This document shows positions 48,001 through 52,727 of a stretch of DNA of 64,000 nt, piece by piece (position 1 is the first letter of the stretch; every line of letters begins with the position of its first letter). The stretch spans positions 64,001-128,000 of the forward strand of contig CAJXQI010000002.1 of assembly GCA_913058395.1 (NCBI GenBank), in the 5' to 3' direction. The DNA comes from an uncultured Colwellia sp. GTDB lineage: Bacteria > Pseudomonadota > Gammaproteobacteria > Enterobacterales > Alteromonadaceae. The notes beneath the pieces are model-generated. The model had not been told where the DNA came from and did not search any database. It saw nothing but the letters and a program-made list of their open reading frames with translations. The position numbers and the translations under genes are program-made.

Positions 48001-48902
48001 AAACGCTCAGACTCTTCCGCATCAACCGTTAAGCCAATGTTGTATTGTTTTGCTTGTAAACAAAGCGCTTTAAGTTTTGGCACAACTTCAGCCATTACAC
48101 GTTCTTTATGAGTAAACTCGTAACGTGGATGAATGGCAGAAAGTTTTACTGAAATACCCGGTACTTTGCGTGGATCGTTTTTACCCGACGCTACCGCTGC
48201 ATTACCAATAGTGACAATCGCATCTTGGTACGACTTCAAATAACGTTCAGCATCGGCCATGGTGCGAGCACCTTCACCAAGCATATCGTAAGAATACACG
48301 TAGCCTTGTTGTTCTTTAGTCGCAGCTCGTTCAGTTGCTGCAACAATGGTTTCGCCCATCACAAACTGCTGACCCATAATTTTCATGGCGTAGTTCATTG
48401 ATTTACGAATAACAGGCTCACCTAAACGGCCGATGGTTCTTTTTAATAATCCAAAGCTGTCTTGCTTACGATTATCAGCATAATCAACCATAGAGCCAGT
48501 GATCAAAAGCCCCCACGAAGAAGCATTAACAAATAACGAATCACTACCGCCTAAATGCGTAGTCCACTGACCTTGAGAAATTTTGTCACGAATTAACGCA
48601 TCTTGCGTATGTTTATCAGGTACACGAAGTAAAGCTTCCGCCAAACACATTAATACCACACCTTCTTCACTTGAAAGCGAGTATTCTTTTAATAAAGCAT
48701 CTATTGCGCCATTACCAGCTTGGTCTAGGCGAATTTGTAATACCATTTTGCGAGCTCTTTCCCAAGCCCTACTTCTGGCACTAACATTAACTTCAGCTAA
48801 AGGTAGAATATGATCTACCGCTATATTCTCATCAATACGATAAAATTCACGAATCTTCTGACGGATTGGACAGTCAGTAATAAAAGAACCATTAAAAAGC
48901 AT
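45078..48902 (-). CDS. putA: Bifunctional proline dehydrogenase / P5C dehydrogenase PutA
   Basis: A 1274-residue enzyme oxidising proline to glutamate. Domains: an N-terminal helical arm (residues 1-130), the FAD beta/alpha-barrel proline dehydrogenase (about 150-490; D-A-E-E-S-E-R-L-D and V-K-G-A-Y-W-D-S-E), the NAD aldehyde dehydrogenase (about 570-1030; W-N-F-P-L-A, F-T-G-S-T-E-T-G and the catalytic Cys in S-A-G-Q-R-C-S-A-L), and a C-terminal domain as in long PutA proteins. It begins directly with the arm and lacks the ribbon-helix-helix DNA-binding domain that lets E. coli PutA repress its own operon. putP is not in the window. Confidence 0.96.
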   Translation of the reverse strand: MLFNGSFITDCPIRQKIREFYRIDENIAVDHILPLAEVNVSARSRAWERARKMVLQIRLDQAGNGAIDALLKEYSLSSEEGVVLMCLAEALLRVPDKHTQDALIRDKISQGQWTTHLGGSDSLFVNASSWGLLITGSMVDYADNRKQDSFGLLKRTIGRLGEPVIRKSMNYAMKIMGQQFVMGETIVAATERAATKEQQGYVYSYDMLGEGARTMADAERYLKSYQDAIVTIGNAAVASGKNDPRKVPGISVKLSAIHPRYEFTHKERVMAEVVPKLKALCLQAKQYNIGLTVDAEESERLDISLDVIEAVFSDDDLTGWNGFGIALQAYQKRAIFVVDWLRELTLRVDRKMMVRLVKGAYWDSEIKNAQKDGHQHFPVFTRKSSTDVSYHACANKLLDYRDTIYPQFATHNAYTAATIVELAGDDKEGFEFQCLHGMGDSLYDQIVTNERIQCRIYAPVGQHEDLLAYLVRRLLENGANSSFVNAIVDETQPVESLLEDPVERTQRLKEKYNKQIVKPIALYYGENGADRDNSKGLDLTDVNAITPLKASLDNWFKDNQLNESELPEGTSAVKNPANHSEIIGFHKHHDKDDMLAMIDTAQTAFATWSTTPVSERAELLCRVADILERHTDELIALCIKEAGKIAQDGIDEVREAVDFCRYYAERAIELESDERLEARGVVLCISPWNFPLAIFLGQVAAAIATGNTVLAKPAEQTSLIALRTIELMKSVGLPEGVVQAVIARGSQVGRVIIPDERIQTVMFTGSTETGTVISQTLAERGGDQVPLIAETGGQNCMVVDSTALPEQVVDDVISSGFQSAGQRCSALRVLFLQEDIADNVITMLKGALAELHVGNPEYLSTDVGPVIDQKALGALNAHSEYMKTNGKLLYQCEVSEEVAGNEHFFFAPRLYEISDISVLKQEVFGPCVHVVRFKGSEIEQVVDKINSTGFGLTMGIHTRIEHRAFDLAKLSRAGNVYINRNMIGAVVGVQPFGGRGLSGTGPKAGGPNYLTRLVKEKATPDAEQFNLQSSHLEALECDEKSRSEAITMMNNANNAEKNWRLADLNTRISSVRQLLAKIAHVDIVDDLADDLSLTLTAARSQLIDIEKRLKKPKVLPGPTGESNIIYLENRGNVISFGDKNSTFHFWVLSIVTALATGNTVVTVVSDLFYDEALAFRDKFIATGEDKNVFQVARLRHLSTMLAHPKLSGVVVDSHCDRKHYISEKLAQRQGAILPVISSEYMDNLIQRLLTEKTISIDTTASGGNTSLMTLVEED

Positions 48903-49251
48903 GTGCTTGCCCTAAAAATAAGATGAAATAGTATTCAAAACCATTCAAAGTTAATTACAATAAAAAATATTCGCGCATGTTAATTCAAACTCTACAGAAT
49001 GTGCTACTTAAATATTGCCTTTAAACAGAATTTTTTGCTTCAAAACAATATAAAGTGAACGATATGCTGACTTTCAAACAATTAGCGCAGAATTATTTAC
49101 CAATTAGTTACATTGGTTAAAAAAATTCATACATTGGCGTCAAGTAATTAATAAGTTAACTCAACTGCCGAGTACGGCTTTGGTTATTAATAGTAGTAGG
49201 TTCTGCTATTAAATAAACAAGTCAGACATTAAGCAAAACCGTTTATGGCTA
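48903..49251. other. Divergent intergenic region putA/vemP-like
   Basis: About 350 nt without a gene; it must hold the putA promoter. Strongly A+T-rich. I recognise no operator here. A perfect inverted repeat follows at 49252. Confidence 0.4.
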
Positions 49252-49289
49252 AACACCTTTTAATTAGCTTACTTTAATTAAAAGGTGTT
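49252..49289. repeat. 15-bp inverted repeat upstream of the vemP-like gene
   Basis: AACACCTTTTAATTA (49252-49266) and TAATTAAAAGGTGTT (49275-49289), perfect, 8-nt loop. It lies 65 nt before the vemP-like start, with no T tract, so either an operator or part of the leader RNA. Confidence 0.6.
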
Positions 49290-49354
49290 AACGCTATTGA
49301 AACATAAACAAAGAACCATATATTATTATGTATCTTAAAGAAGAGTTTGTTTTT

Positions 49355-49774
49355 ATGTGGCGTCAATTAGCAGTAATGTTATTTGTTTTAGTAGTAGCTC
49401 ACACCGCTAGTGCTTTGCCGATCTCTGAGGTTTTAACTGTTGAAAATTCGACTCACCTTACAAACACTCAAATAAAGCAGCAACCTACTTCAGTTTTTGA
49501 TGACAATGAACCCGAAGATTTACTTAATCTTCCAAGACTAAACCGAATTAGTCCGGCTTTATTCAATGCTGAAATACAAACCACGCCAAACTATGTATTA
49601 GTAGTCGAATTCTTTAAAATTAAGCTTTCTGCTGGCTTGTATAAAAACTTAATCAACCCACCTTTAATAACGCCTTGGTTTGAACAGTTAAGCCATAAAA
49701 ATAATTCATCTCGACTTTCTGGCTGGAAAGACGGCAACTCTTTGTATTCATCTCGCACTACCTACCATAGTTAA
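49355..49774 (+). CDS. vemP: VemP-like secretion-monitoring arrest peptide
   Basis: A 139-residue exported protein: signal peptide M-W-R-Q-L-A-V-M-L-F-V-L-V-V-A-H-T-A-S-A (1-20), a hydrophilic middle, and a C-terminal segment R-L-S-G-W-K-D-G-N-S-L-Y (residues 120-131) ending eight residues before the stop. Vibrio VemP (159 residues), as I remember it, stalls with an R-I-S-G-W-K-E-T-N-A-M-Y motif close to its C terminus. Together with the position just before secD-secF, this identifies the protein. When export is poor the nascent chain would stay arrested and open the downstream mRNA for secD translation. The start at 49355 has AAGAG about 9 nt upstream; an in-frame ATG at 49328 would add nine residues. 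The match after Tyr131 is weak. Confidence 0.85.
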   Translation: MWRQLAVMLFVLVVAHTASALPISEVLTVENSTHLTNTQIKQQPTSVFDDNEPEDLLNLPRLNRISPALFNAEIQTTPNYVLVVEFFKIKLSAGLYKNLINPPLITPWFEQLSHKNNSSRLSGWKDGNSLYSSRTTYHS

Positions 49775-49974
49775 TTCACTAAAAGCAGTTTAATAAAACA
49801 TAACCTTTTAGTTTTTCGACTGTAAAAATCACTTATTTACCTTTTTCAAATACCAATACTCAACCATTGGTTGCTTGTCGTATGCGCGCTTTTTTAATTG
49901 GCCTTTACCTTGAATAATCGTCATTAGTTTTTCAATGATTCAAGGCAACTTACGACAAGTTTTTATGTAGAGAT
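49750..49974 (+). promoter_or_regulatory. Structured vemP-secD intercistronic leader
   Basis: The region can fold into several stems. Long range: ATCT and CTAC in the last vemP codons (49750-49753 and 49758-49761) pair with GTAGAGAT at 49967-49974, which contains the probable secD SD (AGAG). Local stems: ACTAAAAG/CTTTTAGT (49778-49785/49805-49812), CAACCA/TGGTTG (49861-49866/49868-49873), CTTGTCGTA/TACGACAAG (49874-49882/49951-49959) and, inside it, CCTTGAAT/ATTCAAGG (49908-49915/49938-49945). A ribosome stalled at the vemP end would cover the anti-SD strand. The folding is by eye. Confidence 0.65.
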
Positions 49975-49980
49975 TTTATA

Positions 49981-51810
49981 ATGAATTCACGTACAACTAC
50001 GCAGACAACAAATGCGAAATGGCAAAATATTGTCATTATTTTCATCTTACTATTTATGGTTATTAGCGCCCTGCCAAATTTATATTCTGACAAGGTGAAC
50101 GTTCAGCTTATAAACAACAGCACTCAAAGCGAAACAATAGCTCCTCAAGATATTAATGCCTTACTGACCAGCAATAACCTGATGGTTGATGAAATTAAAA
50201 CATCAACGAACGGCTCAACCATTATCTTAAAAAATAAAGCCGATAAACAGGCGATAGAAAAACTATTAACACAGGAATATGCTAATGGTTATGCCGTTGA
50301 AAGCTCAGTAGAGAATGACTCTCCCGCATGGCTAAAATCGTTAAATGGCGAGCCGATAAAGCTCGGCTTAGATCTTAGTGGCGGAGTGCTATTTGTACTT
50401 GATGTTGATACCGAGCGTGCCCTTTCTGACAGATTGAAAAGCATCGCCTTAGACGTTAAAACCATAGCGATAGATAACCGCATCCGACTTGGCAAAGTAT
50501 CTCAAGCCAATAACCATTCAATCATCATTGATTTCTCTTCTGCTAAACAATCAGCTAGCAAGCTGTTATTAACAAAAATTAGTAACAGCTACCCAGAATT
50601 GACTCAGAAAAACCTAGCTGATAATAAAGTTGCTTTGAGCTTTAGCTCGCAGGAACAAACCAAATTTCGTCAAGAAACCATGAAGCAAACACTTAAAACC
50701 ATGCGCGGACGTATTGAAGAATTAGGCATTACGGAAGCAGTTACCCAAAAACAAGGTAAAAATAGAATTCGTATTGAATTACCCGGTGTACATGATCCTG
50801 AAGCAGCGAAAAAAATTATTGGCGCGACGGCATCATTAGACTTTTACCAATTGGCTGAGCATTCAAGAGCTGCAGGCATTATACAAATGAGTGACCAAAA
50901 TGGTCGTAAACTTAAAATGAATAGTCAGGTGATATTTTCTGGTGCCAATATTAAAAATGCTCGGTCAGGCCAAGATGAAATGGGTATGCCATTAGTCAAC
51001 TTAACCTTGGATGCCGTTGGCGGTAAAAAAATGTCGCAATTCTCCAAAAGGAATGTCGGCAAGCCAATGGTTACGGTATTTTCCGAATTTTATCGTAACA
51101 CCCAAGATGAAATGGTGAAGAAAAGTAAGGTAATTAATGTTGCCACTATTCAACAACACTTAGGTTCACAATTTAGCATTACCAATATGTCGAGCCATCA
51201 AGATGCACAAGAACTCGCGTTATTGCTCCGTGCAGGTTCATTAACCGCGCCAGTCACTATAGTAAAACAACGCAGTATTGAAGCAACACTTGGTGTTGAC
51301 AATATAGACAACGGCATTAAAGCATTAACCATAGGTATTACTTTTACTTTGTTATTTATGGTTTTTTGGTATCGAGCGTTAGGTGTTATCGCTAACATTG
51401 CCTTGGCATTAAATTTGGTCAGTTTACTTGGATTAATGTCATTACTACCTGGCGCGGTACTAACACTTCCTGGCATTGCAGGCTTAGTGCTAACTGTTGG
51501 TATGGCGGTTGATACCAACGTACTTATTTTTGAGCGAATAAAAGAAGAATTAAAACGTGGTCGCAAAGTAATATCTGCCATTGAATTGGGTTATAAAAGT
51601 GCATTTTCAACTATTTTAGATGCCAATATCACCACCATGATCACCGGCATTATTCTCTATTCCATCGGCTATGGTCCAGTAAAAGGCTTTGCCATCATTT
51701 TATGCTTGGGCATTTTAACCAGTATGTTTACCGGCGTTTTTGTTTCAAAAGCACTGATCAATTTATCTATTCGAGAAAACAAGTCACAGTTACTTGGAGT
51801 TAAACTATGA
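49981..51810 (+). CDS. secD: Protein translocase subunit SecD (second-set type)
   Basis: A 609-residue protein that uses the cation gradient to pull exported proteins out of the SecYEG channel. N-terminal helix (14-32), periplasmic P1 with L-G-L-D-L-S-G-G-V (about 127-135), then five transmembrane helices with G-M-A-V-D-T-N-V-L-I-F-E-R-I (507-520; Asp511 is the conserved ion-pathway acid) and D-A-N-I-T-T-M-I-T. No yajC precedes it; a VemP-like gene does, as for the inducible secDF2 of Vibrio. That suggests a second SecDF set, the housekeeping yajC-secDF lying elsewhere (not seen). It overlaps secF by 4 nt. Confidence 0.93.
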   Translation: MNSRTTTQTTNAKWQNIVIIFILLFMVISALPNLYSDKVNVQLINNSTQSETIAPQDINALLTSNNLMVDEIKTSTNGSTIILKNKADKQAIEKLLTQEYANGYAVESSVENDSPAWLKSLNGEPIKLGLDLSGGVLFVLDVDTERALSDRLKSIALDVKTIAIDNRIRLGKVSQANNHSIIIDFSSAKQSASKLLLTKISNSYPELTQKNLADNKVALSFSSQEQTKFRQETMKQTLKTMRGRIEELGITEAVTQKQGKNRIRIELPGVHDPEAAKKIIGATASLDFYQLAEHSRAAGIIQMSDQNGRKLKMNSQVIFSGANIKNARSGQDEMGMPLVNLTLDAVGGKKMSQFSKRNVGKPMVTVFSEFYRNTQDEMVKKSKVINVATIQQHLGSQFSITNMSSHQDAQELALLLRAGSLTAPVTIVKQRSIEATLGVDNIDNGIKALTIGITFTLLFMVFWYRALGVIANIALALNLVSLLGLMSLLPGAVLTLPGIAGLVLTVGMAVDTNVLIFERIKEELKRGRKVISAIELGYKSAFSTILDANITTMITGIILYSIGYGPVKGFAIILCLGILTSMFTGVFVSKALINLSIRENKSQLLGVKL

Positions 51811-52727
51811 ACAATTTCCTATTAAATCAAAGCCAAACATTAAGTAAGTTGCGCATCACTAGCTTCTATTTTGCTGCTGTACTTGTATTCTTTTCACTAT
51901 TCGGACTCATTAGTCACGGGCTTAATCTTGGTTTAGATTTTACCGGCGGTTACCTGACAGAATTCTCGACACAAGAATCACTTAGCCAAAAGAAAATGAC
52001 TACATTGTTAACATCATATTTGCCCGATACCTTTCAACTGACTTCTGCTGAAAATGGTACACATTGGAGCGTACAACAAGTTGATAATGACATCAGCTTA
52101 AAAGGCAAAGCATGGTTAGCAGAATTCTCCGAGCAAAGTGGCTTAAACATTATCCCACAAGACGCTATTTATATCGGTAGTCAGGTAGGTGAAGAGTTAA
52201 TTAATCAAGGTGGCTTGGCGTTATTAACGGCTGTGATAATAATACTAGTCTACCTATCATTTAGGTTTGAATGGCGTTTGGCCGCTGGCTCAGTAATCGC
52301 TCTTTTTCATGATGTTATTATTGTACTTGGGCTATTTGCTTGGTTTGACGTTTCATTTGATTTAACCATTCTTGCCAGCCTACTTGCCATTATTGGCTAT
52401 TCATTAAATGACTCAATTATTGTCGGCGACAAAATACGAGAAATTATGAAAAAGAATCAAGAAAAAAGTATCGAAACTATTATCAATTTAGCGATAAAAG
52501 CCACCATAGTGCGAACTTTAATAACCTCAGGAACGACATTGGCGACAATATTAGCCATTTATTTTTTTGCAGGTGAGTCATTAACCGGCTTTGCTATTGC
52601 TTTATTTTGTGGAATTTTAGTCGGTACATTTTCATCCATTGCCATTTCGGCAACAGTACCACAGTTGCTTGGTTTAACAGCAGATTATTACAAGCAGAAA
52701 GAACAAGAGGTTTGCCAGTTACCATAA
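51807..52727 (+). CDS. secF: Protein translocase subunit SecF
   Basis: A 306-residue partner of SecD with six helices. It has the family L-G-L-D-F-T-G-G-Y-L-T-E-F (about residues 37-49), F-H-D-V-I-I-V-L-G-L-F, G-Y-S-L-N-D-S-I-I-V-G-D-K-I-R-E (about 205-220) and R-T-L-I-T-S-G-T-T. Its ATG overlaps the secD stop (ATGA), which implies coupled translation. A 12-bp hairpin at 52753-52787 follows the gene. Confidence 0.93.
   Translation: MNNFLLNQSQTLSKLRITSFYFAAVLVFFSLFGLISHGLNLGLDFTGGYLTEFSTQESLSQKKMTTLLTSYLPDTFQLTSAENGTHWSVQQVDNDISLKGKAWLAEFSEQSGLNIIPQDAIYIGSQVGEELINQGGLALLTAVIIILVYLSFRFEWRLAAGSVIALFHDVIIVLGLFAWFDVSFDLTILASLLAIIGYSLNDSIIVGDKIREIMKKNQEKSIETIINLAIKATIVRTLITSGTTLATILAIYFFAGESLTGFAIALFCGILVGTFSSIAISATVPQLLGLTADYYKQKEQEVCQLP

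Follow-up and report, generated by a model that had tools for sequence, protein, structure and literature searches.

The 139-codon open reading frame (ORF) that precedes secD and secF in an uncultured Colwellia sp. (GenBank assembly GCA_913058395.1, contig CAJXQI010000002.1; positions 64,001 to 128,000, a stretch of 64,000 nucleotides called the window below, whose numbering we use) very probably encodes a VemP-type monitoring substrate placed upstream of a SecD2 paralogue, arresting at Tyr137/His138 and controlling secD2-secF2. The gene, its motif, its linkage to secD-secF, its co-occurrence with SecD2, the placement of that SecD2, the selection acting on the gene, and the RNA complementarity at the locus are observed directly. 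By its sequence, the protein is a VemP-type monitor of export whose peptidyl-transferase-end tail departs from that of Vibrio, and the family is wider in hosts and targets than its name implies.

A vemP-like gene in front of a second secDF

The initial annotation had described a 139-residue ORF with a GWK segment before secD-secF and without yajC, and the ORF list and the sequence bear this out. The frame opens with an ATG at 49355 and closes with a TAA at 49772-49774, its product ending in SSRLSGWKDGNSLYSSRTTYHS directly before the stop. An alternative in-frame ATG at 49328 would give a product nine residues longer; of the 13 closest copies, 12 keep the M-W start and L008 has I-W. The distance from the stop to secD is 206 nt, and secD and secF lie on the same strand. 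Their products match NCBIfam NF009545 (760 bits, cut-off 728) and TIGR00966 (253.6 bits, cut-off 160), respectively. The annotation had also proposed looking for another yajC-secDF: the genome has one further SecD, encoded beside yajC on contig C6 (L001, yajC at 101-436 and secD from 595), and the secD in the window has no yajC before it.

Residues 120-131 read RLSGWKDGNSLY and are followed by SSRTTYHS. The Vibrio motif given in the annotation is correct, as seen from the HRIxGWKETNAMYVxLNxx given in PMC7897499 and from the canonical 159-aa VemP copy L071, which reads HRISGWKETNAMYVALNSQFSA; in the comparison with L071, Tyr131 of the window protein corresponds to VemP Tyr150. An RxxxWKxxNxxY-like core, as used to define VemP-like sequences in PMC10987492, is present near the C terminus (R120, W124, K125, N128, and Y131). 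The anchor residues R-G-W-K-N-Y of VemP are retained, including counterparts of all four tunnel-contact residues, W143, K144, R139, and Y150, which are described as touching uL22, U747, A752, and C2610 (PMC5449182). The uL22 hairpin encoded in the same genome reads MKRIMPRAKGRADR.

Conservation of the core and co-occurrence with SecD2

A search of 60 genomes, the window's included, with the SecD of the window identified SecD2-type proteins at 21 loci (L003-L022 and L027), in 18 of which the upstream ORF ends in R-x-x-x-W-K-[DE]-x-N-x-x-Y; L020 has the variant RLSGWKDTRVMY. A 22nd SecD2-type place (G043), outside these 21 and later designated L037, carries the motif. Within the window's genus, a VemP-like protein is found in 12 of 17 genomes and SecD2 in exactly those 12, the five genomes without SecD2 (one of them just 66% complete) all lacking a VemP-like protein; one close relative, G014, carries the locus with a SecD 89% identical to ours. 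In a tree made by a quick method from 53 of the 94 extracted SecD rows, with SecD1 rows set as outgroup, the SecD2 and SecD1 sides are split at a support of 100 and the window SecD falls on the SecD2 side, together with the SecDs that stand behind canonical VemP.

Selection on the gene is uneven. In 13 orthologues recovered through SecD and not through the motif, the ratio of nonsynonymous to synonymous differences (pN/pS) is 0.096 in the core and 0.117 in TYHS, against 0.364 in the whole tail and 0.317 in the 12 residues before the core, and the mature chain drifts in its N-terminal portion (0.566 in 26 copies of Colwelliaceae type). Core and tail values are biased in the Serratia and Pseudoalteromonas sets and in 13 of the 26 members of the Colwelliaceae set, because those loci were picked by a motif pattern, so that the 13 SecD-found loci alone are used for core and tail.

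A degenerate DNA pattern equivalent to about R-[LIMF]-x-[GA]-W-K-[DE]-x-N-x-[LIMVF]-Y was run over genomes of the order and the class. Within the order, 46 of 394 genomes match, spread over 14 of 115 genera and 9 families; across the class, the two genomes that match among 369 both belong to the family of the window, and the 365 outside the order have no match. In all 46 cases the match is close to the 3' end of an ORF, and the next gene is secD in 42, an S41 peptidase gene (PF03572) in two, a DedA gene with mzrA in one, and a chaA-like gene with a DedA gene in one (L077). The annotation had raised the prospect that the GWK motif occurs by chance and is not conserved beside secDF. A chance likeness in an unrelated leader ORF, to which the weak whole-protein similarity to L071 (E 1e-04) might point, is refuted by conservation and linkage and has a negligible probability, given that the reversed pattern matches 0 of 394 genomes, that the motif is linked to secD and co-occurs with SecD2, and given the SecD tree and the low core pN/pS. 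The same evidence, namely the motif and its linkage, the SecD2 co-occurrence, and the SecD placement, together with the RNA pairing at the secD start, strongly supports the annotation's proposal of a homologous, SecDF2-linked VemP-type switch; salinity sensing, also proposed there, is the less secure part.

Some genomes depart from the simple arrangement. At L022 (1008-1394), a SecD2-type locus, the upstream ORF retains P-N-Y-x-L-V-F-E and a W and ends in RFAAWRS, as if truncated within the arrest core. One of the 12 genomes with SecD2 (G006) has an intact vemP-secD2 and a degraded second vemP with a secF remnant (L170, G006:C1, about 1137700-1138100), and G032 has two extra SecD copies of 39-41% identity.

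An alternative tail and the predicted stall site

Past the anchor, the peptidyl-transferase-end segment is SSRTTYH in the window protein and VALNSQF in Vibrio VemP, and V151-x-L153-N154-x-Q156 of VemP is replaced by S132-x-R134-T135-x-Y137. Because these residues differ, we consider the protein a VemP-type variant and not canonical VemP. In terms of a modelling study that distinguishes an anchor from an inner helix in VemP (PMC8887479), the alignment indicates that the anchor is common to both proteins and that the inner segment is different. VemP is reported to arrest with Gln156 in the ribosomal peptidyl (P) site and Phe157 in the aminoacyl (A) site (PMC5449182). The Vibrio spacing from Tyr150, counted from Tyr131, falls on Tyr137-His138 of the conserved T-Y-H, which speaks against the annotation's idea of a shifted stall point: the register suggests a stall site unchanged from Vibrio, Tyr137 occupying the P site and His138 the A site, the residues having changed instead. 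The Y-x4-T-Y-H tail is nearly invariant in the window's group, the four intervening residues being more variable.

Tails of the 46 matches in the order are Y-x4-T-Y-H in nine, V-x-L-N in nine, and of other types in 28. In the SecD tree, 22 T-Y-H rows including the window's (a label that also covers L007, with ITYQS) belong to a group of 25 (support 97), the others being L016 (TTLLDPLS), the long-branch L020, and L021, which has no VemP; the six V-x-L-N rows fall in another group (99). A T-Y-H-type pattern run over named genomes found 72 contigs, from Colwelliaceae, Pseudoalteromonas, Psychromonas, Kangiellaceae (Aliikangiella, Pleionea, and one metagenome-assembled genome so labelled), and metagenome-assembled genomes labelled Alteromonadaceae and Algicola, as well as Serratia (13), Edwardsiella (4), Yersinia nurmii, and Edaphovirga. 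The ORF is followed by secD in 51 and by a DedA-family gene in 19; two stretches end 42 and 53 nt past the vemP stop.

The end of the tail bears on where arrest would occur. In the window's group the tail differs from that of Vibrio and stops one or two residues past T-Y-H, in the Kangiellaceae copies L040, L041, and L043 the stop comes immediately after His, and termination-type arrest motifs (NSP-stop and DGMK-stop) are known in upstream ORFs of sec genes (PMC10987492), as might be expected of a VemP descendant that kept the tunnel anchor and arrests at termination, with Ser139 or His in the P site and the stop codon in the A site, through another mechanism near the peptidyl-transferase centre. 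We hold this to be unlikely, since the distance from T-Y-H to the anchor is the same before a stop (L040), S-stop (window), LS-stop (L059 and L061), PTLA-stop (L095), and a longer tail (L087), as expected if the site is set by the anchor and not by the stop; this fixed distance is inherent in the T-Y-H pattern that found L087 and L095 and not in the motif pattern, where 9 of the 46 loci show it.

Two elements further upstream are also conserved. In P-x-Y-x-L-x-x-E-F, P78 and Y80 are invariant and L82, E85, and F86 nearly so in 18 aligned copies, the element being looser or absent in the wider set; near the tunnel exit, it may be an export-sensing contact. W108 is possibly the counterpart of VemP W124, which stacks on uL22 (PMC5449182).

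Predicted RNA pairing at the secD start and a proposed model of the switch

RNAalifold, run unguided on the intergenic region of 21 vemP-secD loci (13 recovered with SecD and eight with the pattern, the other Colwelliaceae-type loci of the T-Y-H pattern search left out), predicted a helix that joins the region of the vemP stop to the start of secD. Taken as nine pairs, it has 89.4% of its cells paired, against 20.6-45.5% in slid registers, and two-sided changes in 11 cells, against 3.7 in shuffles (0 of 500). The clearest compensatory changes convert the second pair from A-U to G-C in L010-L014 and the eighth from C-G to U-A in L003, L004, L012, and L014. We thus predict an mRNA pairing, with covariation, that masks the secD2 ribosome-binding region. 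Strong pairing also occurs in three of nine canonical V-x-L-N copies (L066, L075, and L076; z -3.5 to -3.9). Mean z values of a simple duplex test are otherwise weak: -1.26 in Pseudoalteromonas (8 copies), -1.76 in the V-x-L-N set (9), -0.68 in the f2 set (7), and -0.73 in Serratia/Edwardsiella (17).

From these data and by analogy with VemP we infer stalling, its site, its release by pulling, and the resulting regulation. The protein would be made with a Sec signal, and brisk export would pull the nascent chain so that translation is completed; the vemP stop region, then free, would pair with the secD start and keep SecD2-SecF2 low. When export slackens, R120, G123, W124, K125, N128, and Y131 would grip the exit tunnel (the uL22 hairpin and 23S rRNA near 747, 752, and 2610) and the ribosome would halt once Tyr137 is in the P site and His138 has entered the A site. 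Covering the stop region, which is the 5' strand of the helix, the halted ribosome would block pairing and secD2-secF2 would be translated.

Several findings weigh against this model. Two SecD2-type loci lack the motif (L021 and L022); just 18 residues can be aligned with canonical VemP L071 (E 1e-04 in a two-sequence comparison); and V151, L153, and N154 of VemP, near the peptidyl-transferase centre, are unconserved (S132, R134, and T135), N154 being the residue said to clash with U2585 and U2506 (PMC5449182). As to the RNA, two of five helix measures do not exceed shuffles (3 vs 2.4 double-change pairs and 5 vs 5.4 further pair types), one pair is mismatched in the copy of the window (L003), the modelled accessibility of the secD start on stalling rises just from 0.36 to 0.47 (up in 11 of 13 copies, equal in one, down in one), and in the simple duplex test the window copy is no better than shuffled sequences (z +0.3; mean -1.41 over 13 Colwellia copies).

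Related leaders in front of other genes

The 19 T-Y-H loci with a DedA gene (yqjA) are the enterobacterial ones (Serratia, Edwardsiella, Edaphovirga, and one Yersinia); mzrA is present in 18 (the L101 stretch ends before it) and exuR lies upstream in 15 (the other four stretches start too near). In the genus of G324, all seven genomes covered have the vemP-like peptide. A CCGGTGT that begins within 1-2 nt after the vemP stop is complementary to an ACACCGG between an AGGA element and the yqjA ATG in 11 of 12 named Serratia loci and in all four further loci of the genus of G324; the exact pair is absent from the twelfth Serratia locus (L085), Edwardsiella, Edaphovirga, and Yersinia. The Escherichia coli yqjA-mzrA operon responds to Cpx and modestly to sigma-E (PMC2727453), which fits an export-stress leader.

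These loci also bear on a reading without ribosome arrest, in which the conserved C terminus serves as a tag for binding or belongs to a small periplasmic protein that acts together with SecDF. A secreted partner would show the same linkage and a signal-peptide-like start, but conservation falls on the residues with which VemP contacts the exit tunnel, the mature chain drifts in its N-terminal portion, the same tail precedes yqjA-mzrA where there is no secD, and the mRNA pairing would be left unexplained; we regard this reading as highly improbable and prefer translation arrest.

MzrA matches PF13721 (SecD-TM1, 1e-17) and the MzrA model NF007915 (138.8 bits), the part common to MzrA and SecD being the N-terminal transmembrane region of SecD only. 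As a candidate relic of SecD2 it was rejected: an MzrA profile (18 rows, four reduced to 32-33 aa by frame extraction) matches VemP-less SecD rows about as well as SecD2 rows, with median scores of 36.1 bits for 12 VemP-less SecDs (10 SecD1, L021, and L022) and of 39.1, 26.0, and 19.8 bits for SecD2 rows with other, V-x-L-N, and T-Y-H tails, so that MzrA is SecD-like without being demonstrably SecD2-like.

In two genomes of the Vibrio family (code f21, an assignment based on their canonical VemP sequences), vemP is directly followed by a chaA-like gene (L172 and L173), and a third genome has the chaA-like and DedA genes at L077; secD is absent from the fetched stretches of all three. In five of seven fetched vemP-secD relatives (L174-L180) a chaA-like gene lies about 2.8 kb after vemP, past secD. 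The chaA-like protein exceeds the cut-off of PF01699 and scores 322.7 bits with the ChaA model NF007895, below its cut-off of 505. On this basis it seems fairly likely that VemP belongs to an order-wide set of export-monitoring leader cassettes in which the tunnel anchor is constant and both the peptidyl-transferase-end tails (V-x-L-N, T-Y-H, and others) and the targets (mostly secD2-secF2, and also yqjA-mzrA, chaA-like, and S41 peptidase genes) can be exchanged.

Features of the locus

Coordinates are collected in Table 1. The promoter-like hexamers are weak, because the upstream scan gave five such sites where 5.0 are expected in shuffles. No terminator-like site was found between vemP and secD in the window, Rfam gave no match at gathering score over 48800-50100, and no Pfam or NCBIfam model matched the vemP-like protein above cut-off (one Pfam match, E 0.11, was far below). 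A plasmid tblastn search had no match, and a PDB sequence search with the whole protein returned only a cadherin at chance level (E 1.4).

Table 1. Features of the vemP-like locus in the window and of related loci
Feature	Position	Strand	Remarks
Promoter-like hexamers TTGAAA-16/18-TATATT/TATTAT, upstream of the vemP-like gene	49297..49326	+	Consensus scan; weak
vemP-like gene	49355..49774	+	139 aa; signal-peptide-like N terminus MWRQLAVMLFVLVVAHTASA, judged by eye
P78-x-Y80-x-L82-x-x-E85-F86 element	49586..49612	+	51-59 residues ahead of predicted P site
W108	49676..49678	+	Invariant in 18 aligned copies
Putative arrest core R120-L-S-G-W-K-D-G-N-S-L-Y131 (VemP R139-Y150)	49712..49747	+	Sequence, alignments, pN/pS
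Alternative tail S-S-R-T-T-Y-H-S	49748..49771	+	Register by alignment and PMC5449182; conservation
Predicted P-site codon, Tyr137	49763-49765	+	Register from Tyr131 spacing
Predicted A-site codon, His138	49766-49768	+	Register from Tyr131 spacing
Predicted helix, 5' strand, vemP stop region	49773..49781	+	RNAalifold, pair counts; one mismatch in window copy
GAGATT, probable Shine-Dalgarno, 11 nt ahead of secD ATG	49970..49975	+	Invariant in 21 aligned sequences; string also served in finding the secD start
Predicted helix, 3' strand, over secD start codon	49979..49987	+	RNAalifold, pair counts
secD2, SecD2-type paralogue (609 aa)	49981..51810	+	ORF, family models, SecD tree
secF2 (306 aa), 4-nt overlap with secD	51807..52727	+	ORF, family models
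T-Y-H-type ORF upstream of DedA gene (yqjA) and mzrA	L081, L085, L087, L094-L096, L098, L101, L110, L115-L117, L122, L132, L139, L141, L142, L144, L152		
VemP-like ORF upstream of secreted S41-type peptidase	L056 482-985; L057 1138-1560		2 of 9 genomes searched of that family

Comparison with known systems and significance

The locus resembles vemP-secD2-secF2 of Vibrio alginolyticus in its position upstream of a SecD2-type secDF with a second SecD next to yajC elsewhere, in a start that by eye is signal-peptide-like, in the C-terminal R-x-x-G-W-K-[DE]-x-N-x-x-Y core with 8-9 residues from core to stop, and in the predicted pairing of the stop region with the secD start. It differs in its tail (Y-x4-T-Y-H-S as opposed to Y-V-A-L-N-S-Q-F), in having little that can be aligned beyond the core, and in the P-x-Y-x-L-x-x-E-F element, which neither L065 nor L071, both canonical copies, shows. 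The uDF_RQH_Enterobacterales peptide of Alteromonas naphthalenivorans (PMC10987492), also a gammaproteobacterium and in the same GTDB order, is an arrest peptide that likewise stands before secDF2, whose Shine-Dalgarno sequence is controlled by a stem-loop, but its arrest motif is R-G-P-P and the account given there describes no GWK anchor; RAPP-like motifs (RAPP, RGPP, and RAGP in the list of that paper) are absent from the 139-aa sequence. SecM (upstream of secA) and MifM (yidC2) are also export or insertion monitors whose stall uncovers a downstream start, with unrelated arrest motifs (PMC7897499) and targets. The enterobacterial yqjA-mzrA operon, target of a related cassette in Serratia and Edwardsiella, is not a SecDF operon.

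A 2024 paper presents the vemP-secD2/F2 operon as specifically conserved among Vibrio species; according to it, E. coli K-12 has no vemP (PMC11470409). A survey of genes upstream of secA, secDF, and yidC reports 339 VemP-like sequences with an RxxxWKxxNxxY-like motif, whose taxa its main text does not name (PMC10987492); some of our secDF cases may be among them, and by the scope stated there the yqjA, chaA, and S41 cases fall outside it. Beyond that survey, and judging mostly from listings, nothing is evident on VemP in Colwellia, Serratia, Enterobacterales, or Shewanella or on secDF arrest peptides of Pseudoalteromonas, and among the matches listed for YqjA with arrest or leader peptides none has YqjA.

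If our interpretation is correct, VemP would be an old, order-wide device, and the window protein would be a natural swap of the kind called for by the anchor-plus-inner-helix model, with the same anchor and a different peptidyl-transferase end. If the cassette family is real, VemP-type arrest would let enterobacteria link a DedA protein and an EnvZ modulator to the state of Sec, and through the yqjA-mzrA and chaA versions export stress would be tied to porin control and cation exchange as well as to a DedA protein; the relation of DedA proteins to Sec would then become directly testable.

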